Notes: generated from the letters alone by a model not told the origin. Positions 33,257 to 50,178 are shown, numbered from the stretch's first letter. The stretch: DNA of 64,000 bases from Solirubrobacterales bacterium (GCA_023958085.1 JAMLGI010000002.1:124001-188000), one strand, 5' to 3'. Made by a program: numbers and translations.

Positions 33257-33712
33257 TCAGGGATTGACTTGGAGGTTCGCGATCGGAACCGCCGAGTGCT
33301 CGAGCTCTACCTCGAATACTCCGGTGATCTCGGCCGGGAACGAGAACTTCGCGGTTCCACCGGCCAAGACTTCCTTGCTCACGTCATAGCCGTGGACGTG
33401 GACCTCGTCCTCGACATCGGACTTGACGGTGAACCGGATCGTCTCTCCTTGGTCGAAGTTCAGGTCGACGACGCCGTCGCGGGGCTCACCGTTCTTGACG
33501 ACCACCTGCGCGACTGGTGGCGGTACCGGTTTCGCGGGCTTTTCGGGCTTCGACCGACTGGCGCCGGTGTCACCGGTTGCCAGTGCGGGGTTCGACGGTT
33601 GCGTCGTTTCGTCGTCATTGGAATCGTCGCCTGGTCGGACGATGAAGAAGAGGGCCAGTACCGCCAGGACGAGTGCCGCGCCCACGATCATTCTTTTGGG
33701 TGGAAAGTTCAT
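33257..33712 (-). CDS. Cupredoxin-like membrane-anchored protein
   Basis: A 151-residue protein with an N-terminal anchor helix (residues 8-26) and an acidic, proline-rich linker. A beta-sandwich domain covers about residues 70-151. The segments VEDEVHVHGYDVSKEV and GVFEVELEHSAVPIANLQV resemble cupredoxin-like domains. Histidines are available for copper, but the usual cysteine ligand is absent, so it is not a blue-copper electron carrier of the classic kind. It is located outside the membrane and co-transcribed with the polytopic protein that follows. Confidence 0.75.
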   Translation of the reverse strand: MNFPPKRMIVGAALVLAVLALFFIVRPGDDSNDDETTQPSNPALATGDTGASRSKPEKPAKPVPPPVAQVVVKNGEPRDGVVDLNFDQGETIRFTVKSDVEDEVHVHGYDVSKEVLAGGTAKFSFPAEITGVFEVELEHSAVPIANLQVNP

Positions 33713-33770: not shown

Positions 33771-34013
33771 TCAGATGTGGATGAGCGACGAGCGCGGAGG
33801 TGGCCTGACCGCCAACGCATAGGCGATCTCTCGCCCTGTCTGCCGGACGAGATCGAGAAGCTCCGGGACGGCCTGTGCGAGCGGCTTGACCGTGGGCCGA
33901 TGTCGGGCGCGCCGGCTGCGGACCCGGATGATGACCTTCTCACCGGGAAAGAAACCGAGACTCAGGGTGAGAAGCAAGAGAAGGGCTGGGACCAGTACCA
34001 GGAAGTGGCTCAA
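33771..34013 (-). CDS. Small membrane protein
   Basis: An 80-residue protein with one N-terminal helix (VLVPALLLLLTLSLGFF) and a basic cytoplasmic tail (GEKVIIRVRSRRARHR...). TTG 34013 overlaps the VKOR stop by four bases (TTGA), the strongest argument that it is real. No family was recognised. Confidence 0.5.
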   Translation of the reverse strand: MSHFLVLVPALLLLLTLSLGFFPGEKVIIRVRSRRARHRPTVKPLAQAVPELLDLVRQTGREIAYALAVRPPPRSSLIHI

Positions 34014-34660
34014 AACAGGGTTCTCCAGTAGCTCCAGAATGCTTCCGCGATCAGCACGACGACCGTGAGCATCGAGACCGTCAAGATTACCCCGTGATAG
34101 TTGGCGGCGAACCGGATAGCTCCATTAAATCTGCCCGCTTTGCCGATGTTTCCCGCTGAGAGGTTGTAGATGGTCACGTAGACAAAAAGGGTGAACACGG
34201 CAACCCAGACGACCATGCAGTACGGGCAAAGCGCTTCGATCCGGTAGAGGCTCTGGAAGATTAGCCAGCAGACGAAACCGAACGCGAACGTCACCCCGGC
34301 CTGGATCACGAGCCACATCCGGCGAGGGAACCTGACCCCGATCAGCATCGCAGCCCCCACCATCGAAAGCCCCCCGAAGCCGACGATCCCGAGAAGTGGA
34401 TTGGGAAATCCGAACGCTTCTGCCTGGTCGCTTTCCATGATCGAGCCGCAGGAGAGGATTGGATTGATCGAGCAGGTCGGGACGTAGTCCGGATTGCCGA
34501 TCAGCTTCAGTTTCTCGACGAAGAGAATCACCGCGGCGAAGAATGCGATCAATGATGCGATCGTGATGATCCAACCGATCGCGCGCTTTAGGAACGCCGC
34601 CGAGTCCGGGACGGGTGATCCGGCCTCGGATTTAGTTACGGATCTAGCCCCAGCCGTCAC
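34010..34660 (-). CDS. Vitamin K epoxide reductase (VKOR) family protein
   Basis: A 216-residue membrane enzyme that re-oxidises a DsbA-like partner using quinone, the actinobacterial counterpart of DsbB. The loop cysteines (VPTCSINPILSCGSIM) are present, as is the helix-4 active-site pair in LYRIEALCPYCMVVW. The GFPNPLLGIVGFGG segment is typical. GTG 34660 overlaps the stop of the DsbA-like gene by four bases, so enzyme and partner are made together. It is part of the operon behind the BlaI-type operator at 35347. Confidence 0.93.
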   Translation of the reverse strand: MTAGARSVTKSEAGSPVPDSAAFLKRAIGWIITIASLIAFFAAVILFVEKLKLIGNPDYVPTCSINPILSCGSIMESDQAEAFGFPNPLLGIVGFGGLSMVGAAMLIGVRFPRRMWLVIQAGVTFAFGFVCWLIFQSLYRIEALCPYCMVVWVAVFTLFVYVTIYNLSAGNIGKAGRFNGAIRFAANYHGVILTVSMLTVVVLIAEAFWSYWRTLF

Positions 34661-35307
34661 TCGGAAAGTAGAGCGTCGATTCGCTCCTTGAGCAATTCAT
34701 ACGGAGGCATCGAGGGCAGCTCTTCATCGTTCAGGAAGATCGTCGGTGTTCCCTGGACGCCGAGGCCCACCCCGTCCTGCTGATCCTTGGCGATCCGCTC
34801 GGCGGTCTTCGGATCGTTCACGTCGGCGACGAACTGCGCCTCGTCGAGACCGAGTTCACGGGCGAACTCGACGAACAGATCCTCCTTGGAATCCTGCGAC
34901 TCGCCCCACTCCGACTGGGTCTCGTACATCTTCACGTACATCTCCTCGAAGGCATCCTGCTTCGATGCCGCCTCGACCGCACGGGCCGCGTTCTCGGCGT
35001 TGCCGTGCCCTGAGAGGGGGAAGTAGCGGACGACGAAGTTGATGCGTCCCTCGTACTCCTCACGGATTCGCTCCATGACCGGGAACTGGGCCTTGCATGC
35101 CTCGCATTCGAAATCGAGGAATTCGACCAGGTTGACCTTGTCGTCCTCGGCGGTGGACAGCATGTGGGAGTCGGCCCTGACCGTCTTCGGGTTCTCAGCT
35201 GCGTCCGAGTTCACCGGTCCCCCGCTGTCGCGGGTGTTCATGAATATGAGGCCACCGAGCACGAACAAGAAGATGACGGCGAAGGTGACTTTGGTGTTCT
35301 GAGTCAA
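34657..35307 (-). CDS. DsbA-like thiol oxidoreductase, membrane-anchored
   Basis: A 216-residue thioredoxin-fold protein with one N-terminal helix (residues 6-24) and an extracytoplasmic DsbA-type domain. The active site is C-E-A-C in LVEFLDFECEACKAQFPVM, and the cis-proline loop is in GVQGTPTIFLNDEEL. It introduces disulfides into exported proteins and is re-oxidised by the VKOR encoded next. The start is TTG 35307 with AAAGGA upstream. It is the first gene after the operator at 35347-35365 and therefore the head of a six-gene row ending at 30869. Confidence 0.92.
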   Translation of the reverse strand: MTQNTKVTFAVIFLFVLGGLIFMNTRDSGGPVNSDAAENPKTVRADSHMLSTAEDDKVNLVEFLDFECEACKAQFPVMERIREEYEGRINFVVRYFPLSGHGNAENAARAVEAASKQDAFEEMYVKMYETQSEWGESQDSKEDLFVEFARELGLDEAQFVADVNDPKTAERIAKDQQDGVGLGVQGTPTIFLNDEELPSMPPYELLKERIDALLSE

Positions 35308-35346: not shown

Positions 35347-35365
35347 CTACTATGTTACGTAGTAG
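35347..35365. promoter_or_regulatory. BlaI-type operator before the DsbA operon
   Basis: CTACTATGTTACGTAGTAG: nine-base arms around one central base, with a single arm mismatch. It contains the TACTA...TAGTA core used by BlaI/MecI repressors and lies between the end of blaI and the DsbA-like start, 40 bases upstream of the latter. Confidence 0.75.
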
Positions 35366-35764
35366 CTACGACTCGTCGTCGGTGAGCTTGCGGAGGCGTG
35401 CGACCTCGTCGGGGCCGGCCTCTGAGACTTGCCGGGCGAACTGCGCGAGGGCGAGGTCACCGTACTCACCGACGAGCGCGTCCACCTCTGCCCTGGCCCG
35501 CTCCTCCAGGTAGCCCTGACGGGAGACCATTGGGCGATAGAGATCCGACTTTCCTTCCCGGCGACGCTCGACGATGCCTTTGCCGTGGAGCCGGGACAGG
35601 ATCGTCATGAACGTCGTGTAGGCACGCTGCTTGCCGCCGCCCGCATTCACCAGCTCAGCAACTCGCCGCACCGAGATCTCGTCGTCGTCTTTCCAGACGA
35701 CCTCCATGACCTCGCGTTCGAGATCGGACAGGCCGGGAAGCTCGTCTTGCTTGGGCTTCGTCAC
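35366..35764 (-). CDS. blaI: BlaI/MecI-family transcriptional repressor
   Basis: A 132-residue winged-helix repressor. It has the family pattern LSDLEREVMEVVWKDDDEISVRRVAELVN at about 10-38, then RAYTTFMTILSRLHGKGIVERRREGKSDLYRP. The C-terminal dimerisation helix ends VARLRKLTDDES. BlaI proteins bind TACTAC...GTAGTA sites and are removed when a membrane M56 protease cleaves them. The M56 gene lies immediately upstream in the same direction. The start is GTG 35764. Four matching sites in the island point to a wider regulon than beta-lactam resistance; no beta-lactamase is present. Confidence 0.92.
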   Translation of the reverse strand: MTKPKQDELPGLSDLEREVMEVVWKDDDEISVRRVAELVNAGGGKQRAYTTFMTILSRLHGKGIVERRREGKSDLYRPMVSRQGYLEERARAEVDALVGEYGDLALAQFARQVSEAGPDEVARLRKLTDDES

Positions 35765-35801
35765 AATCTCACCGTATCGTCGGCACGCGTCGCCATGCCA
35801 G

Positions 35802-36749
35802 TCATCGGAGCTGGAAGCTCGGTCGGGACCAGGTCATCGCGGCGGCCAGAACCATCGGCGTCATCGTCAAGATCAAGAGACAGACGTGCAGGCCGAGCGC
35901 TTCGAATCCGACCGGAACACTCGTAAGTAGCTCGACCGATAGGACCGGCGCCGACAGCAGCGCGGTGAGGGCTACGAGGGTCGCAACGATCATCGATCGG
36001 CTCGGTGTCCAGATGCCGCGCTCGCCGGTCAGATCGTCAACCCTCTCCTTCGAGGCGCTGGCCTGATCGAGTGTTCCGTCGCTTGCCGGAAAGGCGAGCA
36101 GGGCATCGGCTACATCGCGACGGCCACCATCGGTGGAACCGGCTGCCGCACGGTCGGCGCGAATCTCGGAGAGGGCCAGGTACTTCTGGCCGACCTGACC
36201 GAGCACTGGCAGGAAGAAAAACCCCTCGGCAAGCGTTCGGGCGATAGCACGGCGAAGCGGGTCGCGATTGACGCGGTGGTGCTCCTCATGGGCCATCACC
36301 ACACGCAGAACGTCGGGGGATATCTCCTCGACGGCGGCACGGCTCACATAGACCTCGGGACGGAGCAGGCCGGCACAGAAGGCCAAAGGTCGAGAGTCCT
36401 CATACATGCGGCACGAGACGCCGGACGCCACGATCGGCTCCGAGACTCGGCGAAGCGCCTTCACGCGGCGACCCGCCGCTATCAAGCGCCACAGGCTTCG
36501 GGCCGTCCGGACCACGACGAAAAAGGCGGCCAGAGCCACGGCGGCGAAGAGCAGCCATCCGACCGAAAGCCGGGCCAGGACTGTGCCGCAACAGGCCTCC
36601 AGGATCGATCCCGGAGACGGTCCGGCCACCAGCGACCCGATAAGGGTGACAGTCGAGAAAAGCATCGAAACGAACCCCAGGAAGCAGAGCAGGGCGAAAA
36701 GGGTTGATGTCGTGAGCACCGAGCGCACCGGTTGAGGGTAGCGATTCAT
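35802..36749 (-). CDS. M56-family (BlaR1/MecR1-type) membrane metalloprotease
   Basis: A 315-residue membrane protease with four or more helices. The zinc-binding motif HEEHH lies in VVMAHEEHHRVNRDPLRR, with the third ligand region in YLALSEIRADRAAAGS. There is no penicillin-binding sensor domain at the C-terminus, so the signal differs from that of BlaR1; the periplasmic loop or membrane state may be sensed. ATG 36749 overlaps the stop of the cadA-like gene by four bases. It is expected to inactivate the BlaI repressor encoded after it. Confidence 0.9.
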   Translation of the reverse strand: MNRYPQPVRSVLTTSTLFALLCFLGFVSMLFSTVTLIGSLVAGPSPGSILEACCGTVLARLSVGWLLFAAVALAAFFVVVRTARSLWRLIAAGRRVKALRRVSEPIVASGVSCRMYEDSRPLAFCAGLLRPEVYVSRAAVEEISPDVLRVVMAHEEHHRVNRDPLRRAIARTLAEGFFFLPVLGQVGQKYLALSEIRADRAAAGSTDGGRRDVADALLAFPASDGTLDQASASKERVDDLTGERGIWTPSRSMIVATLVALTALLSAPVLSVELLTSVPVGFEALGLHVCLLILTMTPMVLAAAMTWSRPSFQLR

Positions 36750-39046
36750 CCGTCCCGATCACCGTTGTACATCGGCAACGCCCGTGGGGTGTCGGCTTTG
36801 GGCATCGACCGCTCCTGGCAATCCTCGTCGTCACAGCAGACAACGGTCTCCGGCGAGTTCCGGTGCGGGTTCGCGTTAGTCGTCTCGGACCGCGGACGCG
36901 AAGCCGTGCGTGGACGGCGAAGCAGCCGAAGGCCGTTCATCGTGACCAGAAGGGAGATTCCCATGTCCACCGCGATGGCCGTTACGAGGGTCACGTAACC
37001 GAGCGGTGCGAGCACCACGAAGATCGCTTTGCTGACCAGTGAGACGGTCACGTTTTGCTTCATGATGTTCACCGCCTTTCGGCTGAGCCCGATCGCGTCC
37101 GGCAACCTGACCAGGTCGTCCCCCATCAGCGCGACATCGGCCGAGTCGAGCGCCACGTCGCTTCCGGCCGCGCCCATCGCCACACCGACCGTCGCTCCGG
37201 CGAGTGCGGGTGCGTCGTTGACTCCGTCGCCGACCATCACGGTCGGGCCGTGCGTGTCTTCGAGTTCGCGGATCACGTCCAGCTTCTCTTCCGGGAAGAG
37301 CCCTGACCGCCAAGATGCGATGCCGGTTTTTTCGGCGACCGCCCGGGCGACCGGTTCGCTGTCACCGGTCAGCATCACGATGTCGCCTATGCGCAGGTGC
37401 TCGCGAAGAGTTGCCACCGCGGCGCCGGCTTCCAGTCGTGGTTCGTCGGCAAGACCGAAGATGGCGAGTGCACGGTCACCCTCGCCCAGGATCACAGCGG
37501 TCTCTCCGCGGGTCTGTATCTCTTCGAACTGCGGTGGCAGTTGGACTTTTCGGTCGGCCGCCATGCGTGGCCCTCCCGCCCAAAGGTCTCGTCCGGCGAC
37601 GGTTGCCTCGGCGCCCTTGCCCGGTATGGCCTCGAATCCCGTCACCTCCGGAATCGGAGACTCGATCTCGGCCGCGGCCCTCACCAAGGCCTGGCCGAGA
37701 GGATGCTCCGATCCCTTCTCGATCGCCGCCATCAGTCCCAGGGCAGCGTCGTCTCCGGTTCCGTCGAAGGTGGCAACGGTGACCACCACCGGTCTCGCCC
37801 TCGTAAGCGTTCCGGTCTTGTCAAGGGCGACTGCTTTGACCGATGCGAGATCCTCGAGTACCTGGCCTCCCTTGATCAGCACACCGATCTTCGCGGCACC
37901 ACCGATCGCGGCCACAACACTGGCCGGAACCGAGATCACGAGCGCGCACGGGCAGGCGACGATCAGCAGCGCGAGCGCCCGGTAAAACCAGGTGTCGAAC
38001 GAACCCCCGGCGAGCACCGGAACCACGGCGACCGCCACGGCGACAAGCAAGACGATCGGCGTGTAGATCCTCGCGAAGCGATCGACGAATCGCTCCGACG
38101 GGGCACGGCTCCCCTGGGCGTCACTAACCAGGCGAGTCACCTGGGCGAGGGTCGAGTCCTCCGCCCCAGAGGTGGTGCGCATCGTGAACGAACCCGCGAC
38201 GTTCAATGTGCCTGCGAAAACGTCCTCCCCGGCCTGCTTGTCAACGGGAAGCGATTCGCCGGTGAGGGTCGATTCGTCGACACTCGAGTTTCCCTCGATC
38301 ACCTCACCATCGAGTGGGAGCCTCTCCCCCGGCCGGATCACGATCGACGAGCCGACCGTGATCTCCTCGACCGGAGTCAGGATCTCGGTCGAGCCGAAGA
38401 GAACGTGCGCCGTGGTCGGGGCAAGCTCCCGGAGTGATTCGACCGACCGGCGGCTGCGTTCCAGGGCGATCTCCTCAAGTGCGTTGCCGACCGCGAAGAG
38501 CACGACCACCCATGCAGCCTCGGCGTAGTCCCCGATCGCCACGGCACCTACCGCCGCAAGCGCCATCAAGACGTTCATGTCGAGGGCGCGCTGCCGGACC
38601 GCGGCTACAGCGGACACGGCGATTGCCCATCCCCCGGTGACCATCGTCAGGAGAAAGAGGCCCTGGCTGACCACGGCCGGAAGGTCCGTGAGCGAGGTGA
38701 CGACCGCGGCCACGAGCAATCCGATCGCCACGGTGGTCGAGACGGTCCGCGGATTGCGCCGCCAGAACGGAACGAGGTCCCGCCTTGGCTGGCCGGCGGG
38801 TTGGGTCGTGTAACCAGCGCGTCGGACCGCCGTTTGAATCGTCTCGACGGTTGCGGCTCCTTCGACGACCATCGTGGCGTTGCCGATCGACACACTCGCC
38901 GATTCGACTCCATCGAGATTCGAGACGACCTTCTGCACCGTCGCCGCACACGCCGCGCAGTCCATCCCTCCTACGCGAAAGCGCAACGCTTCCGCCGGTT
39001 CGACCTCGACGGCGCCTTCCGGTACTTTCAGGACGCTCTCACTCAA
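36746..39046 (-). CDS. cadA: Zn/Cd/Pb-exporting P1B-type ATPase (CadA/ZntA-like)
   Basis: A 766-residue metal pump. An N-terminal heavy-metal domain carries GMDCAACAATVQK at about residue 28. The membrane metal site CPC is in IVACPCALVISVPAS, and the phosphorylated aspartate in DKTGTLT. The hinge is MVGDGVNDAPALAGATVG. An aspartate-glycine in the last helix (VDMGISLLVTMNGLRLL) is typical of the zinc/cadmium/lead subgroup. The C-terminal tail has an extra cysteine-rich patch (VVCCDDEDCQ). The TTG start at 39046 overlaps the CadC-like stop by eight bases. It is regulated by the upstream metal sensor. Confidence 0.93.
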   Translation of the reverse strand: MSESVLKVPEGAVEVEPAEALRFRVGGMDCAACAATVQKVVSNLDGVESASVSIGNATMVVEGAATVETIQTAVRRAGYTTQPAGQPRRDLVPFWRRNPRTVSTTVAIGLLVAAVVTSLTDLPAVVSQGLFLLTMVTGGWAIAVSAVAAVRQRALDMNVLMALAAVGAVAIGDYAEAAWVVVLFAVGNALEEIALERSRRSVESLRELAPTTAHVLFGSTEILTPVEEITVGSSIVIRPGERLPLDGEVIEGNSSVDESTLTGESLPVDKQAGEDVFAGTLNVAGSFTMRTTSGAEDSTLAQVTRLVSDAQGSRAPSERFVDRFARIYTPIVLLVAVAVAVVPVLAGGSFDTWFYRALALLIVACPCALVISVPASVVAAIGGAAKIGVLIKGGQVLEDLASVKAVALDKTGTLTRARPVVVTVATFDGTGDDAALGLMAAIEKGSEHPLGQALVRAAAEIESPIPEVTGFEAIPGKGAEATVAGRDLWAGGPRMAADRKVQLPPQFEEIQTRGETAVILGEGDRALAIFGLADEPRLEAGAAVATLREHLRIGDIVMLTGDSEPVARAVAEKTGIASWRSGLFPEEKLDVIRELEDTHGPTVMVGDGVNDAPALAGATVGVAMGAAGSDVALDSADVALMGDDLVRLPDAIGLSRKAVNIMKQNVTVSLVSKAIFVVLAPLGYVTLVTAIAVDMGISLLVTMNGLRLLRRPRTASRPRSETTNANPHRNSPETVVCCDDEDCQERSMPKADTPRALPMYNGDRDG

Positions 39047-39410
39047 ACCGAGATCCTGCCGGAGTGTCTCCCACGACCGCCCTAAGAAGATTGGTCCCGG
39101 ACTCGGCCAGCGAGTAGAGGACCATCTTGCCCTCCTTGCGAGAAGTCGCCACGCCGGCCGCTTTCAGCAGTCTGAGGTGATGGGAGACGATCTTGTCCTG
39201 GCGACCGACCACCCACGACAGGTCGCAGACACACATCTCACCACCCGCGTCCAGGGCCATCGCGATGCCGAGCCGGTTCGGATCCGAAAGCGCCTTCGCC
39301 CTCGAGGAAGCGTCGTTCAGCGTCTCCAGGGCGGGCAGGGTTTCCCTGATCCGTTCAGCCTTGGGGATATCGAGGCAGAGCAGCTCACAGGTTTCGTCGG
39401 TCGCGGTCAT
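39039..39410 (-). CDS. cadC: CadC-like ArsR/SmtB metal-sensing repressor
   Basis: A 123-residue winged-helix repressor. Cysteines at 8 and 12 (ETCELLCLD) and 60 and 62 (EMCVCDLSW) have nearly the spacing of the Cd/Pb site of CadC (Cys7, 11, 58, 60 in the Staphylococcus protein). The recognition helix region is QDKIVSHHLRLLKAAG. It is the first gene of the cadC-cadA-M56-blaI row and is expected to release DNA when cadmium, lead or zinc binds. The DNA upstream (39411-39690) is the shared control region with the divergent M23 operon. Confidence 0.9.
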   Translation of the reverse strand: MTATDETCELLCLDIPKAERIRETLPALETLNDASSRAKALSDPNRLGIAMALDAGGEMCVCDLSWVVGRQDKIVSHHLRLLKAAGVATSRKEGKMVLYSLAESGTNLLRAVVGDTPAGSRFE

Positions 39411-39484
39411 AAAATCATCCTAACATCCGTGAGATTGTTGGTGACAACCTCCCCGAGCGAATCTTCAGCGGTATCGCAGGGTTC

Positions 39485-39501
39485 TACTACAGCGTGTCGT
39501 A
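39485..39501. promoter_or_regulatory. BlaI-type operator before the M23/thioredoxin operon
   Basis: TACTACA, GCG, TGTCGTA: one mismatch from a perfect inverted repeat with the same three-base spacer as the site at 46304. It lies in the 280-base gap between the divergent cadC and M23 genes, about 190 bases before the M23 start. No other gene is seen in that gap. Confidence 0.65.
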
Positions 39502-39690
39502 AGTATTCGCTACAGTCTCAATCTGTTCATGCCATAACTGCCGAATCCAGCGACCTTCAGTCAATGGAGCGGGGGAACCAACGAGACCAAGGAGGTCTCC
39601 GGGGCGAATCGGAAGCTTGCTTTCCGTAGCGCGATCTCTTTCAGCGCGAGCCCGTCAGCTAACCCCGCAGGCTCAAGAGAGAGGACCGTT

Positions 39691-40233
39691 TTGTCCCGAT
39701 CACCCCTGGTGAGGAGCCTCATCGCCGCCGCTGCCGTGTTCATGACCATCGGAACCGCCCAATCTTTCGCCTCCAGTGGCGGGATCAACTTGCCGTCGGC
39801 GGACGAACCGGTGGCCGACAGTGGTGCCGCCAAGTTCCCGGTGAAGGCCCGTGTGTCTTGGGGCGACGGGCTCGGTGCGGGCCGCCGCCACCAGGGCCAG
39901 GACCTGATGGCGAAGTGCGGCAGGCCGGTCGTCGCCGCCAAGGCCGGGAAGGTGACGACCGTCGACTACCAAGCCTCCGGCGCAGGTAACTATGCCGTCG
40001 TTCGCGGCACGTCCTCGAAGTTCGATTACGTCTACATGCACATGCTGAAGGCTCCCCGCGTCTCGACCGGAGACCGGGTCAAGGCCGGACAGACGATCGG
40101 CTTCGTCGGCTCCACCGGCCGCTCGTCTGCCTGTCACCTCCATTTCGAGATGTGGACCCGCCCCGGCTGGTACAGGGGCGGCACCGTCAGCGATCCGACC
40201 CCCTACCTCCGACGCTGGAAACGATCGAGCTAG
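39691..40233 (+). CDS. Secreted M23-family peptidase
   Basis: A 180-residue exported protein with a signal peptide (SLIAAAAVFMTIGTAQSFA type) and a single M23/LytM domain. The zinc ligands are visible in RRHQGQDLMAKCG (H and D) and in SACHLHFEMW (H-x-H). The fold-typical GNYAVVRG and VKAGQTIGFVGSTGRS are present. It would cut peptidoglycan cross-bridges. The start is TTG 39691 with GAGAGGA upstream. It ends directly against the next gene, the second thioredoxin-like lipoprotein, so wall hydrolysis and thiol exchange are co-expressed behind the operator at 39485. Confidence 0.88.
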   Translation: MSRSPLVRSLIAAAAVFMTIGTAQSFASSGGINLPSADEPVADSGAAKFPVKARVSWGDGLGAGRRHQGQDLMAKCGRPVVAAKAGKVTTVDYQASGAGNYAVVRGTSSKFDYVYMHMLKAPRVSTGDRVKAGQTIGFVGSTGRSSACHLHFEMWTRPGWYRGGTVSDPTPYLRRWKRSS

Positions 40234-41217
40234 ATGCGCCTCGGCCGGAACGGAAGAAACCTGGGTCTGGCCGCACTCGTCTGCTTGGTTTCAGCAGGGC
40301 TCCTTTCCGGTTGCGGCGAGTCCGCACCTGAGGAGGGAACCACCCCGGCCCCGTCTGCTTCGGACTTCCCCGCACCCGGCAACCGTACGATCGAGGAACT
40401 CGCTGACACCGCTTCCTCCAGTGACTACCTGGTCGCTCCCGCCGGCAAGGTTTTCGAGCCCGGCCGAACGAGGTACTCGTTCGCCGTCCTTGACAAGCAG
40501 GGAAGCCAGGTCAACGACCAACAGGTCGCGATCTACGCGACCCGGGGACCGAAGGACAAGGTGATCGGGCCGTTTCCGGCGAGCATAGAATCACTCGCCA
40601 CCGACCCTTCGTTCAGCGCCCAGACGACTTCGCAGGATCCCGGAGCCGCCAAAGCCGTATATGTGACCGAGCTCGACCTGCCGTCCGCCGGCAGTTGGTA
40701 TCTCCTCGCCTACATCAACGCCGAATCCGGACCCCAGGGAGCCCAGCTCCCGACGATCAAGGCGTTGAAAGACAACAACGTGGCCGCCGTCGGTGAACCG
40801 GCACCGCGGGTCAGTACCCCGATCCCCGCCGATGTCGGCGGCGACATCTCGAAGATCGACACGAGGATCCCGGCCGACAGCATGCACCGCTCAGATCTCC
40901 AGGACGTGCTCGGCAAGAAGCCGGTGATTCTCGTGTTCTCGACTCCGCAGCTCTGCGAGAGCCGGGTCTGCGGACCGGTTGTGGATGTCCAGGCTCAGGT
41001 CGCCGAAGAAATGGGAGATCGTGCCGAGTTCATCCATTCGGAGATCTACAACGACAACGACGCAAACAAAGGTGTCCGGCCCCCGGTCAAGGCATTCGGC
41101 CTTCCCTCCGAACCTTGGCTGTTCGCGATCGATGAGAACGGGATCGTTCGGGATCGGATCGAAGGCCCGTTCGGCATCGAAGAAGTCCGCCGCGCCGTGG
41201 AGAAAGCCACGTCGTAA
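40234..41217 (+). CDS. Thioredoxin-like lipoprotein, copy 2
   Basis: A 327-residue lipoprotein, lipobox AGLLSGCGES, paralogous over its whole length to the protein at 30869-31858. Shared blocks include the VAPAGKVFEPGRTRYSF-type segment, GGDISKIDTR and the thioredoxin-like site PQLCESRVCGPVVDV with C-x4-C. They also share SEIYNDNDANKGVRPPVKAFG and EPWLFAIDENG. Its ATG follows the M23 stop without a gap. Two divergent copies on one island suggest duplication and specialisation. The role is presumably extracytoplasmic thiol-disulfide exchange; partner proteins are unknown. Confidence 0.82.
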   Translation: MRLGRNGRNLGLAALVCLVSAGLLSGCGESAPEEGTTPAPSASDFPAPGNRTIEELADTASSSDYLVAPAGKVFEPGRTRYSFAVLDKQGSQVNDQQVAIYATRGPKDKVIGPFPASIESLATDPSFSAQTTSQDPGAAKAVYVTELDLPSAGSWYLLAYINAESGPQGAQLPTIKALKDNNVAAVGEPAPRVSTPIPADVGGDISKIDTRIPADSMHRSDLQDVLGKKPVILVFSTPQLCESRVCGPVVDVQAQVAEEMGDRAEFIHSEIYNDNDANKGVRPPVKAFGLPSEPWLFAIDENGIVRDRIEGPFGIEEVRRAVEKATS

Positions 41218-41230
41218 CAATCACGACATC

Positions 41231-42004
41231 GTGACTTCGCCGACCGCCGACTCCCCAAAAGACACACCCTGGACCGGCCGCCTGACACTCACACCGGGCA
41301 TGGTGATCTACACCGGTCCGGGCGGGGACGCCGGCCTTCATTCTCACCACGCAATCCAGCTCGTCCGCTCGCTCGACATGTCATTCGAGTTAATCGTCGA
41401 GGATGAGACCACGAGATGTGAGGCCGCGCTCATCCCGAGCGGCTTGCCTCACAGCTTCAGCAGCGACGGCAACCAGCTTCTCATCGCTCTGATCGAGCCA
41501 CTCGGACCCCGCGGCACCGATCTAAACCTGCTCGCCACGAACCTCGGACGGAAATGTCTGGGTGACAGATTGCCGTCCGTGTCGCCAACGGATATCGACA
41601 ATCCGATCCAGATGGCGGGCGACACCCTCGGCGCGCTATTGCCCGAACTTCCGACCTACCCGACCCTCTCCCCTCACGTGGTCGCGGCCCTCACATACCT
41701 GGACGAGGCGATTGAAGGGAAGCCGAGCCTGGAGCAAGCGGCATCGGCGGCCGGCATCTCACCTTCGAGGTTGACCCATGTGTTCACCGAGGAGATCGGG
41801 ATTCCCTTCAGGAATTTCGCGCTGTGGCTCCGGCTCCGCCGAGTGGTCGACCAGGTGTCCGAGGGAGCCAACCTGACCGAAGCCGCGTTCGGTGCGGGCT
41901 TTAGTGATTCGCCGCATCTCAGCAAAGTGTTTCGTGAACATTTCGGGATGAGCCCGTCCGCCCTTCTTGGAATGAAGGTCGCCCCCGAGACCTGGCCCGC
42001 CTGA
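41231..42004 (+). CDS. AraC-family transcriptional regulator
   Basis: A 257-residue regulator from GTG 41231. The N-terminal cupin-like domain (about 15-110; GGDAGLHSHHAIQLV) probably binds a ligand. Two helix-turn-helix motifs follow at the C-terminus (about 165-255), with PSLEQAASAAGISPSRLTHVF and NLTEAAFGAGFSDSPHLSKVF, then REHFGMSPSALL. It sits 13 bases after the lipoprotein gene and upstream of the transglutaminase/AhpD-like pair, which it likely controls. Confidence 0.9.
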   Translation: MTSPTADSPKDTPWTGRLTLTPGMVIYTGPGGDAGLHSHHAIQLVRSLDMSFELIVEDETTRCEAALIPSGLPHSFSSDGNQLLIALIEPLGPRGTDLNLLATNLGRKCLGDRLPSVSPTDIDNPIQMAGDTLGALLPELPTYPTLSPHVVAALTYLDEAIEGKPSLEQAASAAGISPSRLTHVFTEEIGIPFRNFALWLRLRRVVDQVSEGANLTEAAFGAGFSDSPHLSKVFREHFGMSPSALLGMKVAPETWPA

Positions 42005-42070
42005 CGGCCGGGCAAGTAGGTCAGCCGAAAAATACAAGCCATATTCAGCCTCCCCTCCTACCTTGGAGGC

Positions 42071-42832
42071 ATGGATACGAACTTGAAGACAACACCGCTC
42101 CTGAACTACGAGGATCCGACGATCCAGACGCTGATCAACGACCGGGGCTGGATGTCGATGGCCGGGGATGCCCGCATCGGCGCGATTTACGACTTCGTCC
42201 GAGACGAGATCGACTTCGGCTACAACACCTCCGACGACCTCCCGGCCTCCGCGGTGCTTGCCGACGGATACGGCCAGTGCAATACGAAGACGACACTGCT
42301 CATGGCACTGCTCAGGGGTGCCGGCGTTCCCTGCCGCTTCCACGGGGCGACCATCCACAAGGAGCTCCAGAAGGGCGTGATCGAAGGGCTCTTCTACCGG
42401 ATCGCTCCCGAGAGCATCATCCACAGTTGGGCGGAAATTCAGGTGGACGGGCGCTGGGTCGGGCTCGAAGGAGTCATCCTCGACGCCCCGTACCTGGACG
42501 GACTCCGCGAGACCGTCGCGAAGGACGGTGGCGCCTTCCTCGGCTACGGCGCCGGCACCGAGAACATCGACGACCCACCTGTCGCCTGGCGCGGCACCGA
42601 CACCGCGATCCAGGCCACCGGGGTCAACCGGGACTTCGGAATCTTCGATGACCCAGACACCTTCTACGAGCGGCACGGAGCGAACCTTTCCGGCCTGAAG
42701 GCCCTGCTGTTCAAGGCGATGATCCGGCACCGGATGAACCGAAAGGTCGCATCGATCAGGAGCTGCGCGCTTCCCGCACCTCGCCTCGACACCGCCAAAA
42801 CGGCACCGATCGGTCAGGGACAAGGCATATGA
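42071..42832 (+). CDS. Transglutaminase-like cysteine protein
   Basis: A 253-residue protein of the transglutaminase-like superfamily (papain-like fold). The catalytic cysteine is in DGYGQCNTKTTLLMALLRGAG. The histidine is in ESIIHSWAEIQVDGRW, and the aspartate region in LEGVILDAPYLDG. There is no signal peptide, so it acts in the cytoplasm, as a protease or acyl-transfer enzyme of unknown substrate. The ATG has GGAGG close upstream. The C-terminal 60 residues are unrecognised. It overlaps the AhpD-like gene by four bases. Confidence 0.85.
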   Translation: MDTNLKTTPLLNYEDPTIQTLINDRGWMSMAGDARIGAIYDFVRDEIDFGYNTSDDLPASAVLADGYGQCNTKTTLLMALLRGAGVPCRFHGATIHKELQKGVIEGLFYRIAPESIIHSWAEIQVDGRWVGLEGVILDAPYLDGLRETVAKDGGAFLGYGAGTENIDDPPVAWRGTDTAIQATGVNRDFGIFDDPDTFYERHGANLSGLKALLFKAMIRHRMNRKVASIRSCALPAPRLDTAKTAPIGQGQGI

Positions 42833-43485
42833 GCGAATACACTCTGCCACTCGCGCTGAAGGACACCGCGACCTTGCTGCGCCACCTTCCGAGTGTCTGG
42901 GGAATCTGGGGTCGAAAGCGCCTCGATCCGCACCTAAGGGAAGAGGTGATGGTCGCGGTGGCCGCATCGGTCGGTTGCCGCTATTGCACCTTCTCCCATC
43001 GCGAAATGATCCTCCAAAGCGGTGAGAGCCTTCTCGCCCTCGCTGAGTTCGAGCAGGTCGAAAACCCTGACGAGCGCGTCTTCGCGGCGATCGTCTGGGC
43101 ACAGGCCAAGGTCGAGGCCGACTTCGGTCCCGCCCCCGCGGCCATCGAGCAGGAAATGCGAGACCGGTTCGACGCTCGGGAGCAACGTGATCTCGAAACC
43201 GTGGCGATCGCAATGAAGTCGATGAGTTCTTGCGGTCACCAGGCCGACGGCCTCGTTCAGCGACTCAGCGGGCATTCCGCCACCGGCCGTCTTGGCAATC
43301 AGATCCTGATGGCCTTCCTTTACTTTCCTCCGGCGGTCCTGGTCTACGGAGCACTCGCCGCCAAGCGAGGATCGGCAAGAACGCTCTTTCGCGACTTCCG
43401 GCAGTTCTCGACAATGTTCACCGCGAACGGTACGGCGAAGGACGCCGTCCCGGAAACCTCGACGCAACCGGCCGCGCGCGTCTAG
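42829..43485 (+). CDS. AhpD-like / carboxymuconolactone-decarboxylase-family protein
   Basis: A 218-residue helical protein of the CMD/AhpD superfamily. The redox motif CRYCTFSHRE (C-x2-C-x3-H) is intact at about residues 46-55, as in AhpD-type peroxidase partners. That suggests peroxide or disulfide chemistry. Downstream residues are helical with no second domain recognised. ATG 42829 overlaps the transglutaminase stop. It is convergent with the coiled-coil M23 gene, the two frames sharing four bases at the ends. The AraC-transglutaminase-AhpD set is an unfamiliar combination. Confidence 0.82.
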   Translation: MSEYTLPLALKDTATLLRHLPSVWGIWGRKRLDPHLREEVMVAVAASVGCRYCTFSHREMILQSGESLLALAEFEQVENPDERVFAAIVWAQAKVEADFGPAPAAIEQEMRDRFDAREQRDLETVAIAMKSMSSCGHQADGLVQRLSGHSATGRLGNQILMAFLYFPPAVLVYGALAAKRGSARTLFRDFRQFSTMFTANGTAKDAVPETSTQPAARV

Positions 43486-44693
43486 AGATAACCGAGCGGG
43501 TCTTGCGCGACACCATCAACCCGGGTCTCGAAATGAAGATGATCACCGAAGCTATTGCCGGTGTTCCCGACATAACCGATCACGTCGCCCTGGCTCACCT
43601 CGGCACCAACCGAGGTTCCGAATTCTGATTGATGCGCGTAGCAAGTAGAGAGACCACCACCGTGATCGACGCAGGTAAAGAGGCCATATCCACCGCTCTC
43701 GGCCTCCGATTGCATCAGGATCACCGTGCCCGATGCCGCCGCCTTGATCGAAGAGCCACCGGGCGCAGAGATGTCGAGGCCCTCGTGAACTCTTCCCCAC
43801 CGCGGCCCGAATGGCGACGAGAGAGTTCCCTCGATCGGCCAGATCATGCTTCCGTTCCCCGCCGAAGGGGCAGGGCCGGAGCTCGACGATGATGCCTCGG
43901 CGATCGTCGACTGGATTTTCGATCTGAGATCGGCCGCAATCTCCTCATGCTGCTCGATGTCATCCCGGACCGTCCCGAGCAGGGACTCCTTGTCCGACCG
44001 GAGCGTGGAAAGGCTCGACTGGCGAGACTCCAGGGCCACCCGCGTTGTTTCCAACTGGGCCTCCCTGGATGCGATCTCGTCCCTGGCCGACTCGATGGTG
44101 GATTTCGCCTTCCGTTGGATCTCGACGCTCGCGCGAGCCTCGTTGCGTAGATCGCGAACTCGGGAGGCAAGATCCTCCGTCTGGTTCTGGATCGCCTCTA
44201 GATACTCACCAGTTGCGACGAGGTCGCCGTAGTCCTCGGCGGCGAGCGCGATCGACGCCAGGTCCGGGGTGCCCGCCATATAGGTGGCGACCAGGTTCTC
44301 GCGCAAGTTAGTCAGGGCCCGTTTCAAACGCTGGCGTTGAACTTCGAGTTGTTCGACCGCGACCTTCAACTCGCGGATCGCCTCGTCCAGCTCGTCCTGC
44401 TTTTGCTCGAGTTCGGACTCTGCGACCGATTCCTGTTGTCGAAGGCTGGAGACCTCGCCCTCCATCGCCGAGATCTGGCCGTCGTACTTCTCGATCTCGG
44501 TGGTGAGAACCTCCTCGCGTCCCTGTTCCTTCTCTAGCTTCGACTCAACCCGGTCGAGCTTTTCCTCGGTTGAAGGGGCACCCTGGGCTTGCGTGACCAG
44601 CGCCCCGGTGATCGAGATCGTCAAGACCATCGCGCCGAGAATGATGGCGCGCAAGGTATGGCTGATCGGCGGGATTGGTTGGAAGGAGGGCAC
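43482..44693 (-). CDS. Coiled-coil M23 peptidase, EnvC/NlpD-like
   Basis: A 403-residue exported protein. It has a signal segment (RAIILGAMVLTISITGALVTQAQG), a long coiled coil at about 40-260 and an M23 domain at about 280-400. The M23 domain has PSAGNGSMIWPIEGTLSSPFG, GRVHEGLDISAPGGS, TCYAHQS and GDHLHFETRV, which supply the H, D and H-x-H zinc ligands. Such proteins either cut peptidoglycan or activate amidases at division sites. The start is GTG 44693, without a strong ribosome site. A BlaI-type operator lies 23 bases upstream. Confidence 0.9.
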   Translation of the reverse strand: MPSFQPIPPISHTLRAIILGAMVLTISITGALVTQAQGAPSTEEKLDRVESKLEKEQGREEVLTTEIEKYDGQISAMEGEVSSLRQQESVAESELEQKQDELDEAIRELKVAVEQLEVQRQRLKRALTNLRENLVATYMAGTPDLASIALAAEDYGDLVATGEYLEAIQNQTEDLASRVRDLRNEARASVEIQRKAKSTIESARDEIASREAQLETTRVALESRQSSLSTLRSDKESLLGTVRDDIEQHEEIAADLRSKIQSTIAEASSSSSGPAPSAGNGSMIWPIEGTLSSPFGPRWGRVHEGLDISAPGGSSIKAAASGTVILMQSEAESGGYGLFTCVDHGGGLSTCYAHQSEFGTSVGAEVSQGDVIGYVGNTGNSFGDHLHFETRVDGVAQDPLGYL

Positions 44694-44715
44694 TGATGGC
44701 GAATTGGAAACTATC

Positions 44716-44732
44716 TACTACATACCGTAGTT
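44716..44732. promoter_or_regulatory. BlaI-type operator before the coiled-coil M23 gene
   Basis: TACTACA, TAC, CGTAGTT: the ACTAC/GTAGT core is exact and the outermost bases differ. It has the same three-base spacer as two other sites. It is immediately upstream of the M23 start at 44693. The gap of 162 bases to ccdA holds nothing else recognised. Confidence 0.6.
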
Positions 44733-44855
44733 GGTCTGGGGAGCTTCCTTGTCGTCCATGATCGGTTCGGGAAAGATGATTCAGCGCCGAGTGAAGTCAA
44801 ACTCCTATTCCCCTGCCCAGTCGAGCGTTCGGCGTGTTGCGAAATCGGCCAGGAC

Positions 44856-45614
44856 TCAGACCGAGTTCCAGAAATCCAGGCCGATGTCGCTCATCCATTT
44901 CTGAACCTCGATGTTGATCCGAAACAGCTCGCCCGTCCAGATGAGGACACCCATCGCGATCAAGATGATCCCGCCGAAGGCGACGATCACGTTGTAGTGA
45001 CGCTTCACGACCGCGAACGCCGTGGTCATTCGATTGAAGGCGAGCACGGTCAGGAGGAAGGGAATCGCCAGTCCCGCCGAGTACACGGCGAGCAGCAGCG
45101 CCCCGCTCGCGGCTGAGCCCGACAGGGAAGCCGCCGAGAGGATCGCCCCCAACGTCGGTCCGATGCACGGAGTCCAGGCGAAAGCAAAGGCGGCCCCGGC
45201 AACGACAGGCCCTCCTTTTCCAGCCCGTAACATCAGGGCGTCGACGTGCCATTCGCGATTGAGCTTGGCTATGAAGAACGAACTGACGAAGAGGACTCCC
45301 ATCAAGATGATCAGGGCCGCGGCGATCTTGTCGAGGAGCTGACGGTTATCGGCGAGGATCGAACCGAGCTTCGTCGCGCTGAGTCCGAGCAGCACGAAGA
45401 TAAGGGAGAAGCTCGCGACGAAGAAGAGGCTCGGCACCAGAACCCGCCTCCACCCCGCGTCCTCGATGTCATCGATTGAGACTCCGGTGACGGCGGACAG
45501 GTAACCGGGAACCAGCGGCAGGACGCAGGGTGAGAGGAACGACACCATGCCCGCCAGTAGCGCGGCGAGGAGACCCACACCCTCGGCCGGATTCGAAGTC
45601 GCGAGTAGGTCCAC
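44856..45614 (-). CDS. ccdA: CcdA-family transmembrane electron transporter
   Basis: A 252-residue protein with six helices that carries reducing equivalents from cytoplasmic thioredoxin across the membrane to outer thiol proteins. The two redox cysteines are in VSFLSPCVLPLVPGYLSAV and FAFAWTPCIGPTLGAIL, as in CcdA and the DsbD core. It would reduce the thioredoxin-like lipoproteins of the island (inference). GTG 45614 directly follows the methyltransferase stop; both follow the perfect BlaI-type site at 46304. Confidence 0.93.
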   Translation of the reverse strand: MDLLATSNPAEGVGLLAALLAGMVSFLSPCVLPLVPGYLSAVTGVSIDDIEDAGWRRVLVPSLFFVASFSLIFVLLGLSATKLGSILADNRQLLDKIAAALIILMGVLFVSSFFIAKLNREWHVDALMLRAGKGGPVVAGAAFAFAWTPCIGPTLGAILSAASLSGSAASGALLLAVYSAGLAIPFLLTVLAFNRMTTAFAVVKRHYNVIVAFGGIILIAMGVLIWTGELFRINIEVQKWMSDIGLDFWNSV

Positions 45615-46271
45615 CTACCGTGGCTTCGCGGCCGAGATGAACTCCATCGAGCCCCACACGGTTCTCAGCGTGCGCCAGACGGAAACGTCTTCGAAACCAG
45701 CCGCGCCGACAAGCTTCGGGATCTCTCCTCGGGCGTGGTCCCTCGTGTTGACGAGCCCGTCGAGAACGCGCAGGAGTTGGAAGCCCGCGAACGTGATCGC
45801 GTCCGGCTTGCCCCAATCGGCGACGTGGAGGCGCCCACCGGGCCGCAGGACCCGCTCGGCCTCGACGAGCGCCAAAGCCTTGGCCTCGGGACTCAGGTGA
45901 TGGAGGAGGAGAGACATCGAAACGACATCCACGCTGTCATCCGCCAAGGGAAGGCCCGTCGCGAGACCCTCGTCCCAACGAACCCGGTCCGACCCCGGCT
46001 TGGCCTTGGCGATGGTGATCGATTCGGGATCGCCATCGATGCCGATGACCGTCGCGTCGCGGCGGGTGTCGGCCAGTTCGATCGCGAATGTTCCCGTTCC
46101 GGAACCAACATCGGCCGCGACCCCACCCTCCGGTAGATCGAGGCTGATTCGTTCGACCAGCGCCGTTCTCCAAGAACCTTCACGCATGCTCAGCGCCATG
46201 ACCGGGTCGTACAGGCGGGTGAACCCTCCGCGTCCGGCCGCCGGAACGTAACGATCGCCGTCAGGAGTCAT
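45615..46271 (-). CDS. Class I SAM-dependent methyltransferase (UbiE-like)
   Basis: A 218-residue methyltransferase. SAM motif I is in GGVAADVGSGTGTFAIELADTR at about 52-72; the acidic motif II is VIGIDGDPESITIAKAK. SMSLLLHHLSPEAKALALVEAERVLRPGGRLHVADWG covers motifs post-I to III. The substrate is unknown. The ATG start is 33 bases from the BlaI-type site at 46304-46320, making it the first gene of a pair with ccdA. Confidence 0.88.
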   Translation of the reverse strand: MTPDGDRYVPAAGRGGFTRLYDPVMALSMREGSWRTALVERISLDLPEGGVAADVGSGTGTFAIELADTRRDATVIGIDGDPESITIAKAKPGSDRVRWDEGLATGLPLADDSVDVVSMSLLLHHLSPEAKALALVEAERVLRPGGRLHVADWGKPDAITFAGFQLLRVLDGLVNTRDHARGEIPKLVGAAGFEDVSVWRTLRTVWGSMEFISAAKPR

Positions 46272-46303
46272 TGGTCATCCAGGTATTGATGGGGTCGACC
46301 ATG

Positions 46304-46320
46304 TACTACAGATTGTAGTA
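46304..46320. promoter_or_regulatory. BlaI-type operator, perfect inverted repeat
   Basis: TACTACA, GAT, TGTAGTA: seven-base arms, exact. This is the best match in the window to the BlaI/MecI consensus core. It stands upstream of the methyltransferase-ccdA pair, in a 124-base gap otherwise free of features. Confidence 0.82.
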
Positions 46321-46395
46321 GAGCACACTCGGAGCGCGGATGTCCGGAGTCCCGTACACAGCGGGGTCGGCCGTGATCCTCGGTGGTTCGGTGGG

Positions 46396-48339
46396 TCACG
46401 GTTCCACCGTGTGAGGTGTCGTCTTACGAGCGGCGCGAACGCCGTTGCTGACCGCCAGGAGTTCTGCGATCTCGTGAACCGCGACTGCGATGACGACGCT
46501 CAGCAGACCAACGACGGCGCTCGGAATGAGCACTGCGAGCAAGATGACACTGAACACAAGATTCTGCCGGGAGATGCGGGTTGCGCGTCGGCCAAGTTGG
46601 AGTGCCTCCGCCGCCTTTGTAAGGTCATCGGCCAGCAGGGCAATATCGGCGGCTTCAATGGCCGCGTCCGTGCCGCCGGTGCCTATGGCAATACCGACGT
46701 CGGCCGTCGCAAGTGCCGGGGCGTCGTTGATTCCGTCGCCAACCATCGCCACGGAGCCGTGCTGCTCCTGGATCTGCTCGATCCTAGACACCTTGTCTTC
46801 AGGCTTGAGCTCAGCGAAGACCTGATCGAGACCCAGCTGCGCCGATATCGCCCGCGCCGTTCGCTCGTTGTCGCCGGTCAGCATCACGACATGGGCGACA
46901 CCTAGACGTCGAAGCGCAACTATCGCCTGCGCCGCTTCGGGGCGAGGTTCATCCCGAAGCGCAAGCAGCGTGCACGGTTCGCTGCCCACGCCAGCCACGA
47001 TCACAGTCTTACCTTCGTCTTGCAGCTTCTCGATGACGTCTGGTAGATCAGTTGAACCCATGCGATCGATAGCCAGAGCCGGACTCCCCACCCAGGCCGT
47101 TCGACCATCCACAAGCGCGGTTGCCCCGTGCCCCACCAGGGCAGAGAAGTCCTCGGTTGGACCGGGCTCGATTCCTGCCGTGCGGGCGTAAGCGACCACC
47201 GCCGCAGCCAATGGGTGTTCAGACCGCGCTTCGATAGACGCTGCGATCCGTAGCCCTTCACCTTCGTCGACGTCGTTCAAGGCGACCACGTCGGTGACTT
47301 CGGGCTTGCCACGAGTGAGAGTTCCGGTCTTGTCGAACGCGACCGCATTGACCCGCCCGAGTGCTTCCAGTTGCAGGCCTCCCTTTATGAGAATTCCCTC
47401 CCGCCCTGCCCGCGTGATAGCTGCGGCAGCCGCGACCGGCACGGACATGACGAGGGCACAAGGGGCGCCGGCCACCAGGACCGTTACGCCTCGCAGAGCC
47501 CATTCTTGCCAGTCGCCGTCCACGATGCCGCCGACGACAGCGACCAGCGCCGCACCCACCAAGACCGCCGGGCTGTATCGAGTCGCGAACCGGTCGACGA
47601 AGCGTTGTGCCTTCGACTTCTGGCCCTGCGCTTCCTCGACCAGATGAACGATGCGCTGGAGGGTGTTGTCGGCGTATGGCCTTGTGACCTCGATCTCGAT
47701 CGAGCCGGTCCCGTTCACCGAACCCGCGAACACCTCTTGTCCCGGGTCCTTGGCAACTGGCATCGACTCTCCGGTCACGGGTGCTTCGTCAAGCGTCGAG
47801 TTGCCACTTCTAAGGACACCGTCAGTCGGCAGGGCCTCTCCGGGCCGGACTATGAACAGGTCACCGACCACGAGATCTTCGGCCGGAATCATTTCTTCGC
47901 GTCCGTTGACGATTCGTCTCGCTTGCTTTGGGGCGAGATCGAGCAGATCCCGGATCGCCGACCGGGTCCGAACGAAGGTCAGTTCTTCAATCGCTTCAGC
48001 AAGGGAGTAGAGAAAGACCAGTGCCGCCGCTTCTTCGAAAAGGCCGAAAACGAGACAGCCGGCAGCAGCGATCAGCATCAGTGCCTCGACGCCTATCTCG
48101 TGCTCTTCGACGAGTTCCTCCCACCCCTCCTGAGTGAAATACCAAGCCCCTATCGGGATCGCTACGAGGAACGCTGCGATCGCCAGCACTTCCGACGCGC
48201 CGGTGAACTCGAGGACGAGGCCGACAACAAGAGCGATCCCGGCGAGCAGCGCGTTTCGAAGCGGCCCGAAACGAAATGCTGCCTCGCGCCAGCTCAGACC
48301 GGTCGCGGCCTCCGAGTTGCCGCAGTCGCTGGAACTCAC
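46396..48339 (-). CDS. P1B-type metal ATPase with APC membrane motif (P1B-4-like)
   Basis: A 647-residue pump from GTG 48339 (four-base overlap with the sensor stop); TTG 48378 would add 13 residues. There is no N-terminal metal-binding domain. The membrane motif is A-P-C (VLVAGAPCALVMSVPVAAA) instead of CPC or SPC. Phosphorylation motif DKTGTLT, the HP motif SEHPLAAAV and the hinge MVGDGINDAPALATADVG are intact, so it should be active. The last helices carry HEIAELLAVSNGVRAAR, like the HEGGT motif of cobalt/iron-type P1B-4 pumps. It is probably regulated by the CmtR-like protein upstream. Confidence 0.88.
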   Translation of the reverse strand: MSSSDCGNSEAATGLSWREAAFRFGPLRNALLAGIALVVGLVLEFTGASEVLAIAAFLVAIPIGAWYFTQEGWEELVEEHEIGVEALMLIAAAGCLVFGLFEEAAALVFLYSLAEAIEELTFVRTRSAIRDLLDLAPKQARRIVNGREEMIPAEDLVVGDLFIVRPGEALPTDGVLRSGNSTLDEAPVTGESMPVAKDPGQEVFAGSVNGTGSIEIEVTRPYADNTLQRIVHLVEEAQGQKSKAQRFVDRFATRYSPAVLVGAALVAVVGGIVDGDWQEWALRGVTVLVAGAPCALVMSVPVAAAAAITRAGREGILIKGGLQLEALGRVNAVAFDKTGTLTRGKPEVTDVVALNDVDEGEGLRIAASIEARSEHPLAAAVVAYARTAGIEPGPTEDFSALVGHGATALVDGRTAWVGSPALAIDRMGSTDLPDVIEKLQDEGKTVIVAGVGSEPCTLLALRDEPRPEAAQAIVALRRLGVAHVVMLTGDNERTARAISAQLGLDQVFAELKPEDKVSRIEQIQEQHGSVAMVGDGINDAPALATADVGIAIGTGGTDAAIEAADIALLADDLTKAAEALQLGRRATRISRQNLVFSVILLAVLIPSAVVGLLSVVIAVAVHEIAELLAVSNGVRAARKTTPHTVEP

Positions 48340-48677
48340 GCGGCCTGCCGCCGCCGGCCACGGCCGTAGTTCGGGCAAGACTCGATCCGATCCCCGGCAC
48401 GATCAAGCAGAACGTCCGCGGTCCCTAGAAGCTCTTCAACGCTTTCGCCAAGCCGGTAGTGAACCTCCCGGCCCCGCCGTTCGCGCTCAGCAACCCCGCA
48501 CTCCCAAAGGCAGGCCAGATGAGTTGATGCGTTCGGCTGGGAGATGCCAATCGCCGTAACAACATCGGTAACCCGGGCTGGTGAATTGGTCCGCAGGAAC
48601 TCGACTATCCGCTGCCTAGTCGGGTCCGACAGGCCGTGAAACAGGATGGTTCTCAAGTCAACGACGTCCACAGTCAT
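48336..48677 (-). CDS. CmtR-like ArsR/SmtB metal-sensing repressor
   Basis: A 113-residue winged-helix repressor from ATG 48677; the upstream frame has no domain. Cysteines at 56 and 60 (HLACLWECGV, on the recognition helix) and at 101 (RIESCPNYG) have exactly the spacing of Cys57, 61 and 102, which bind Cd/Pb in Mycobacterium CmtR. It is expected to repress its own operon with the ATPase. The promoter region upstream is AT-rich, with TATAAT-like sequence and a CTGTAACAG near-palindrome around 48684-48692. The 139 bases to the next gene hold no other feature. Confidence 0.88.
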   Translation of the reverse strand: MTVDVVDLRTILFHGLSDPTRQRIVEFLRTNSPARVTDVVTAIGISQPNASTHLACLWECGVAERERRGREVHYRLGESVEELLGTADVLLDRAGDRIESCPNYGRGRRRQAA

Positions 48678-48816
48678 ATTGACTGTAACAGATATAATTG
48701 ACCGACACCAATGTTTTTCCCGCCGCTTTCGTTCCGCGATCACCCGAAGTTCGCCTCGAAGGAAGCCACAGCCGACGACGAGCTTCGATGCCTCCAAGAC
48801 CCGCAAAGTGAATGAA

Positions 48817-50115: not shown

Positions 50116-50134
50116 TCAGGCACTTAGTGCCTGA
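50116..50134 (-). repeat. Island-end inverted repeat, right copy
   Basis: TCAGGCACT, T, AGTGCCTGA: exact nine-base arms, identical to those at 27948-27975. On the minus strand the match to the left copy continues for eight more bases with two differences. Confidence 0.7.
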
Positions 50135-50178
50135 TCCACGGAGAAAAAGCAGGCGGGTTCAAACGCACTCGGAAAGCA

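Follow-up and report, generated by a model that had tools for sequence, protein, structure and literature searches.

We analyzed a 64-kb stretch of DNA (64,000 nucleotides, hereafter the window, in which all positions are counted) from an uncultured actinobacterium, a Solirubrobacterales bacterium (GCA_023958085.1, JAMLGI010000002.1:124001-188000), and found four palindromes of the form TACTACA-N3-TGTAGTA, which head four transcription units and lie close to the genes for a BlaI-type repressor and an M56/BlaR1-like membrane protease. We consider it likely that these elements form a BlaI/M56-controlled regulon for metal and thiol stress in the cell envelope, a variant of the theme, seen in PetR-PetP, of BlaI-M56 pairs without a penicillin sensor. 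The sequence basis for this reading consists of the sites, the gene content, its conservation, the ends of the island that carries it, repressor-operator covariation and cysteine conservation; from these we infer binding, cleavage, signal and physiological output.

The original prediction had placed four inverted repeats in the window, and all four were present, with 0-3 mismatches to TACTACANNNTGTAGTA. Operator 1 (35348-35364; TACTATGTTACGTAGTA, 3 mismatches) lies directly after the blaI stop codon and before the dsbA operon, operator 3 (44716-44732; 2 mismatches) stands before the gene for a coiled-coil M23 peptidase, and operator 4 (46304-46320), a perfect palindrome with 0 mismatches, before a methyltransferase-CcdA gene pair. 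The gene neighbours were as predicted, except that operator 2 (39485-39501; 1 mismatch) is divergent and serves, besides the genes for a short M23 peptidase and a thioredoxin-domain lipoprotein on the plus strand, an ArsR-ZntA-M56-BlaI unit on the minus strand that had been missed. A palindromic TAC..GTA operator thus precedes the transcription unit of blaI itself, and BlaI is predicted to be autoregulated. All four operators lie between genes, at distances of 31-216 nt from the predicted starts. Several of them overlap gene-directed TANNNT hexamers that are kept between genomes (TAGGAT/TAGCAT at dsbA, TACAGT/TACGGT at the coiled-coil M23 gene, TACAAT/TACTAT at the methyltransferase gene); in the window the -10-like hexamer TAGGAT overlaps the edge of operator 1, and operator 4 includes the -10-like hexamer TACAAT. 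This overlap would fit repression by covering of the -10 element.

The pattern TACTACANNNTGTAGTA at up to 3 mismatches had exactly 4 matches in the window, compared to 0.08 expected from shuffles. Over the whole 2.44-Mb genome there were three places with no more than 2 mismatches, and each of them fell within this 11-kb stretch, so that the predicted enrichment on the island was confirmed, and there was no equal scatter over the chromosome. At up to 3 mismatches, the pattern on which the genome-wide claim is based, there were 19 places, 15 of which, including the four operators, were scored with a weight matrix. The operators scored 25.3-28.3 (25.3 for operator 1, with its 3 mismatches), and the other 3-mismatch places scored no more than 15.1 (11 of 15 scored). 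Since the matrix was partly trained on the window sites, independent support comes from the relatives. A chance origin of the repeats was ruled out by the window shuffles, the genome-wide scan and the matrix scores.

The relatives examined were 18 genomes of the genus (metagenome-assembled genomes, MAGs, of Solirubrobacterales). Matches with at most 2 mismatches occurred in only five of the 18, those with a blaI island, and were nearly all clustered within ~12 kb. Four of these five genomes have a close BlaI; in the fifth (G010) BlaI is more distant, and the sites form two clusters on a single contig. No such sites were found in two further genomes with only a distant BlaI, nor in any genome without BlaI, and a reversed control pattern gave 1-8 matches per genome. 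The gene order is shuffled among the five genomes, yet the operators keep heading the same genes, namely DsbA-VKOR, the short and the coiled-coil M23 peptidases, CcdA or methyltransferase-CcdA, and ArsR-ATPase; a CDF-type zinc exporter also lies behind the motif in G001 and G006. In the family of 50 genomes there was a single additional place with at most 1 mismatch, and it adjoins a distant blaI. At loci outside the matrix training (L084-L093, L039 and L033), 34 matrix matches with a score of at least 13 were found in 184 kb, compared to 0.07 per shuffle, and among ~55 such sites all but one were intergenic, though 83% of the sequence is coding. L039, a related locus with CopA, belongs to a cultured relative, Paraconexibacter antarcticus.

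The original prediction left open whether the system answers wall damage, thiol stress or metal stress, and the cargo behind operators across the family favours metal or thiol state over wall damage. Among 56 proteins behind operators outside the close group there were five TlpA/AhpC-type redoxins, five methyltransferases, three each of Lgt, CopC, CopD and thioredoxin, two DsbD, CopA and DUF305, set against three M23 peptidases. This recurrence suggests a common core of metal handling and envelope thiol chemistry, and we regard a metal or thiol signal as somewhat favoured. Wall hydrolases are common mainly in the genus of the window, and homologues of the window M23 proteins are absent from most family loci. 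The main rival explanation is that M56 or BlaI itself answers peptidoglycan fragments or wall stress and that the regulon exists for the sake of its M23 peptidases. Operators do precede two M23 peptidase genes in the window and also in relatives, M23 genes adjoin even distant BlaI-M56 pairs (G012, G003), and there is a precedent in Bacillus licheniformis, where BlaI binds a dipeptide from peptidoglycan that makes the BlaI-DNA complex less stable (PMC3305447). Against the census, and with no other peptidoglycan-metabolism gene recognised among the island genes scanned, we judge wall-fragment sensing to be unlikely.

The BlaI repressor (35366-35764, minus strand) has 132 amino acids and no cysteine, and it matches the Penicillinase_R winged-helix family (PF03965) over its full length (E 5.6e-23, 81.9 bits against a cut-off of 22.6). 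Its closest solved chain is 2g9w (E 4e-15), which we take to be M. tuberculosis Rv1846c. The M56/BlaR1-like protease (35802-36749, minus strand; 315 amino acids) carries HEEHH at 154-158 and E195xxAD, and 14 homologues show no variation at the HExxH residues or at E195. Its model has long helices at 14-41, 63-102, 251-276 and 282-308. As predicted, the 315-residue protein has no C-terminal penicillin-binding sensor domain and ends after the last membrane helix; its best fold match, BlaR1 8exp (probability 1.0, E 7.8e-3), covers the transmembrane/protease part. An ordinary beta-lactam response, with the neighbouring genes as mere hitch-hikers on the island, might be read from the protein family names and from M. 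tuberculosis BlaI, which controls blaC (PMC8265638, PMC12565901). We rejected it as very improbable, given the missing sensor domain and the absence of a linked beta-lactamase: as had also been predicted, no beta-lactamase gene was found among the island genes scanned, the beta-lactamase-family (PF00144) homologues lie elsewhere in the genome (C1, C3, C22) without an operator-like site directly in front, and the operators head non-beta-lactamase operons in five genomes.

The identity of the operator-binding protein can be judged from the variation of the motif. At base 2 of the half-site the clade of the window BlaI has A74:C6, compared to A5:C29 in the clade of the G010, G003, G034 and G012 BlaI proteins, where the operator is shifted accordingly to TCCTACA (Fisher P-value 3e-16, to be taken as indicative, given some dependence between half-sites). 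The BlaI of Kribbella is more distant; at its loci (L040-L058) two sites, and once three, lie immediately before blaI, ~33 nt apart, and there were no further sites elsewhere in stretches of up to 20 kb; the motif also stands directly before blaI in loci of Paractinoplanes and Acidimicrobiaceae. The position before blaI and the tracking of the BlaI clade by the half-site together argue that the motif is the operator of BlaI and not of ArsR, and BlaI almost certainly binds these sites. Binding by ArsR regulators instead, which the location of operator 2 in the ArsR promoter region and a second ArsR gene near operator 4 might suggest, was rejected as very improbable, because of the Kribbella sites and the clade covariation, and L084-L093 have no homologue of the window ArsR proteins near their sites. 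The regulon proposed in the original prediction is thus supported by operators that are conserved in four other genomes of the genus and shift with the BlaI clade. Among the papers searched, none described this operator or a BlaI-M56 system with DsbA or CopA.

In the mechanism that we propose for the metal/thiol-stress regulon, a BlaI dimer would bind the four 17-bp palindromes, several of them over -10-like hexamers, and repress four units including its own operon. M56, although devoid of a penicillin sensor domain, would cleave BlaI upon envelope stress, and it is very probable that this protease inactivates BlaI. The stress would most likely come from thiophilic metals (Zn/Cd/Cu) or from an upset thiol-disulfide balance, which M56 may sense via its invariant outer-side pair Cys54/Cys290. 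Derepression would then jointly supply a metal exporter, disulfide oxidation by DsbA-VKOR, reduction or isomerisation by CcdA and TlpA-like proteins, and M23 wall hydrolases. It is conceivable, though we propose it with reserve, that the sensor-domain-less M56 is itself the envelope redox or metal sensor, with the Cys54-Cys290 pair switching BlaI cleavage. If this is true, M56 would be an equivalent of BlaR1 made of a single transmembrane component: it would register the thiol-disulfide or metal state and thereby control the disulfide enzymes, the exporters and the hydrolases of the wall.

Several points weigh against the metal/thiol-stress reading, some of them within the cysteine evidence that otherwise speaks for it. 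Cys54, which follows the first helix in a loop, and Cys290, which falls in the final helix or the C-terminal tail, were present in 14 of 14 proteases of the group, and the pair was found in 0 of the 24 other M56 proteins compared, but most of these come from Kribbella, whose M56 lacks the pair, so that the contrast is not phylogenetically independent. Likewise, at least two operators away from blaI were seen at 11 of the 14 loci with the pair and at 3 of the 24 without it (two of the three being start-choice artefacts), which is a correlation within few lineages. Both residues probably face the outer side, judging from the order of helices in the model and assuming an intracellular protease; Cys54 falls in a low-confidence loop (pLDDT below 50), which leaves a Cys54-Cys290 contact only putative, and their assignment as the sensing residues is tentative. 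In addition, the match of the protease to Pfam M56 (PF05569) is 26.9 bits, below the curated cut-off of 31. ArsR could be the real metal sensor of the ArsR-ATPase-M56-BlaI operon, and the M23 genes would suit wall damage equally well. Finally, the analysis is based on MAG contigs of a genome that is 95% complete.

The unit leftward of operator 2 is a row of overlapping or closely spaced genes, in which an ArsR/SmtB metalloregulator (39039-39410) and a ZntA-like P1B-type Zn/Cd/Pb exporter with an HMA domain and a CPC motif (36746-39046) precede M56 and BlaI, all on the minus strand. Rightward of operator 2, the predicted M23-thioredoxin lipoprotein proved to be two plus-strand genes, the short M23 peptidase (39691-40233) and a lipoprotein (40234-41217) with a beta domain and a thioredoxin domain (CESRVC) that is TlpA/ResA-like in its structure model. 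Among the many immunoglobulin-fold matches of the N-terminal beta domain of this lipoprotein is one to CrdA, a copper protein of Helicobacter (probability 1.0, E 1.8e-3). Behind operator 1, on the minus strand, follow a DsbA-like thiol oxidase (34657-35307), VKOR (34010-34660), an 80-residue protein with a hydrophobic segment that is conserved in the islands of relatives (33771-34013), a cupredoxin-like protein (33257-33712), a 460-residue membrane protein (31872-33254) and a lipoprotein with a thioredoxin-like domain (30869-31858) that is a paralogue of the one at 40234-41217. The original prediction had called the fourth of these a cupredoxin; the similarity is there but weak, and with no cysteine ligand and a conserved HVHG the protein is ruled out as a standard blue-copper protein. 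The 460-residue protein, of unknown family, had no Pfam or NCBIfam match. Paralogues of both this protein and the short M23 peptidase occur elsewhere in all genomes of the genus, a core one in the case of the former, so that the island would provide some core envelope functions with a second copy that can be induced.

The remaining operators also face minus-strand genes: operator 3 the coiled-coil M23 peptidase (43482-44693), and operator 4 a UbiE-type methyltransferase (45615-46271) and a CcdA/DsbD-type thiol transporter (44856-45614). Upstream of operator 4, with no operator in front, lies a second P1B ATPase (46396-48378, minus strand) in which APC replaces CPC and HEIAELL was noted in the last helix region. 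The second ArsR regulator spans 48336-48806 (minus strand). Genes for an AraC regulator, a transglutaminase-like protein and a carboxymuconolactone-decarboxylase-like protein occupy 41237-43485, between operators and with none of their own, and this trio is conserved in G016.

The regulon is the cargo of a tRNA-His genomic island, in agreement with the original description of an island. A left attachment repeat at 27786-27829 is a direct copy (95%, blastn) of the 3' 44 nt of tRNA-His (gtg; 50209-50283, minus strand), which forms the right attachment end, and corresponds to 50209-50252 of that gene. The 22-kb block between the repeats is low in GC (0.59-0.65 compared to 0.64-0.69 outside). The same arrangement occurs in G001 (53 kb) and G010 (~40 kb), each with its own regulon; the G001 island has an MFS gene and two end genes in common with the window. 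At the right end of the window island, a 5.4-kb block (44855-50230; CcdA, methyltransferase, P1B ATPase, ArsR and end genes) shares 92.9% DNA identity with G010 (L034:8468-13856), and its ATPase and ArsR have 97-99% protein identity, far above that of other island genes, which points to recent exchange between islands. No integrase was found among the window island genes scanned; two loci of relatives, L033 and L031, do carry integrases. Right-flank genes are conserved beside tRNA-His in several genomes and the left flank is not, and the comparison gave no clean empty site. The sole match of the left end of the island to plasmids was a VOC-family gene. A DUF6602 and JAB-domain gene pair (28069-29403) lies immediately inside the left repeat. 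A 10-kb tRNA-His island in another genome (G004:C14:120895-131119, L115), with one common end gene and repeats, has no operator match and no BlaI, which indicates that tRNA-His is an island hotspot in the genus.

The closest characterised case of a sensor-less BlaI-M56 pair is, to our knowledge, PetR-PetP. This Synechocystis system is a copper-dependent pair of a BlaI-family factor and a BlaR1-family protease (PMC7896320), and the likeness to the window lies in the adjacent genes, the non-beta-lactam targets, the metal theme and the small regulon. The cyanobacterial pair regulates plastocyanin and cytochrome c6 and acts as both repressor and activator (PMC7896320). In the window, likened to it by description and not by sequence, the genes behind the operators are instead those for a Zn/Cd exporter, for disulfide enzymes and for M23 hydrolases, and they lie on a tRNA-His island. 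Compared to S. aureus BlaR1-BlaI and MecR1-MecI, the window shares the repressor family, the gluzincin membrane protease, the autoregulated pair and the palindromic operators, and differs in having no penicillin-binding sensor domain, no beta-lactamase or PBP2a, and other cargo. The M. tuberculosis pair BlaI (Rv1846c)/Rv1845c is likewise actinobacterial and provides the best solved-structure match noted above; its M56 protein, adjacent to BlaI, also lacks a penicillin sensor. The reported M. tuberculosis targets (blaC, sigC and ATP-synthase genes) are dispersed over the chromosome (PMC8265638, PMC12565901), whereas those of the window are clustered on the island. The copper repressors CopY/CopR, whose operator is RNYKACANNTGTMRNY (PMC7253601), belong to the same repressor superfamily and share the TACA/TGTA operator half and a heavy-metal ATPase in the regulon; the window BlaI differs from them by the lack of a C-terminal CxC (CopY_TcrY model 39 bits against a cut-off of 122), a spacer of N3 instead of N2, and its M56 partner.

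Many of the actinobacteria sampled pair a BlaI-type repressor with an M56 protein that has no penicillin-binding domain. We know of no signal for such proteins, PetP excepted. In the family described here the operators of the regulon are clear, the operator code is specific to the clade, and two candidate sensing residues are open to mutation; the entire circuit, operators included, travels on tRNA-His islands. The family would connect a 'beta-lactamase' regulator with the homeostasis of metals and disulfides in the envelope, and it suggests a little-known way in which bacteria may sense metal or thiol damage there.

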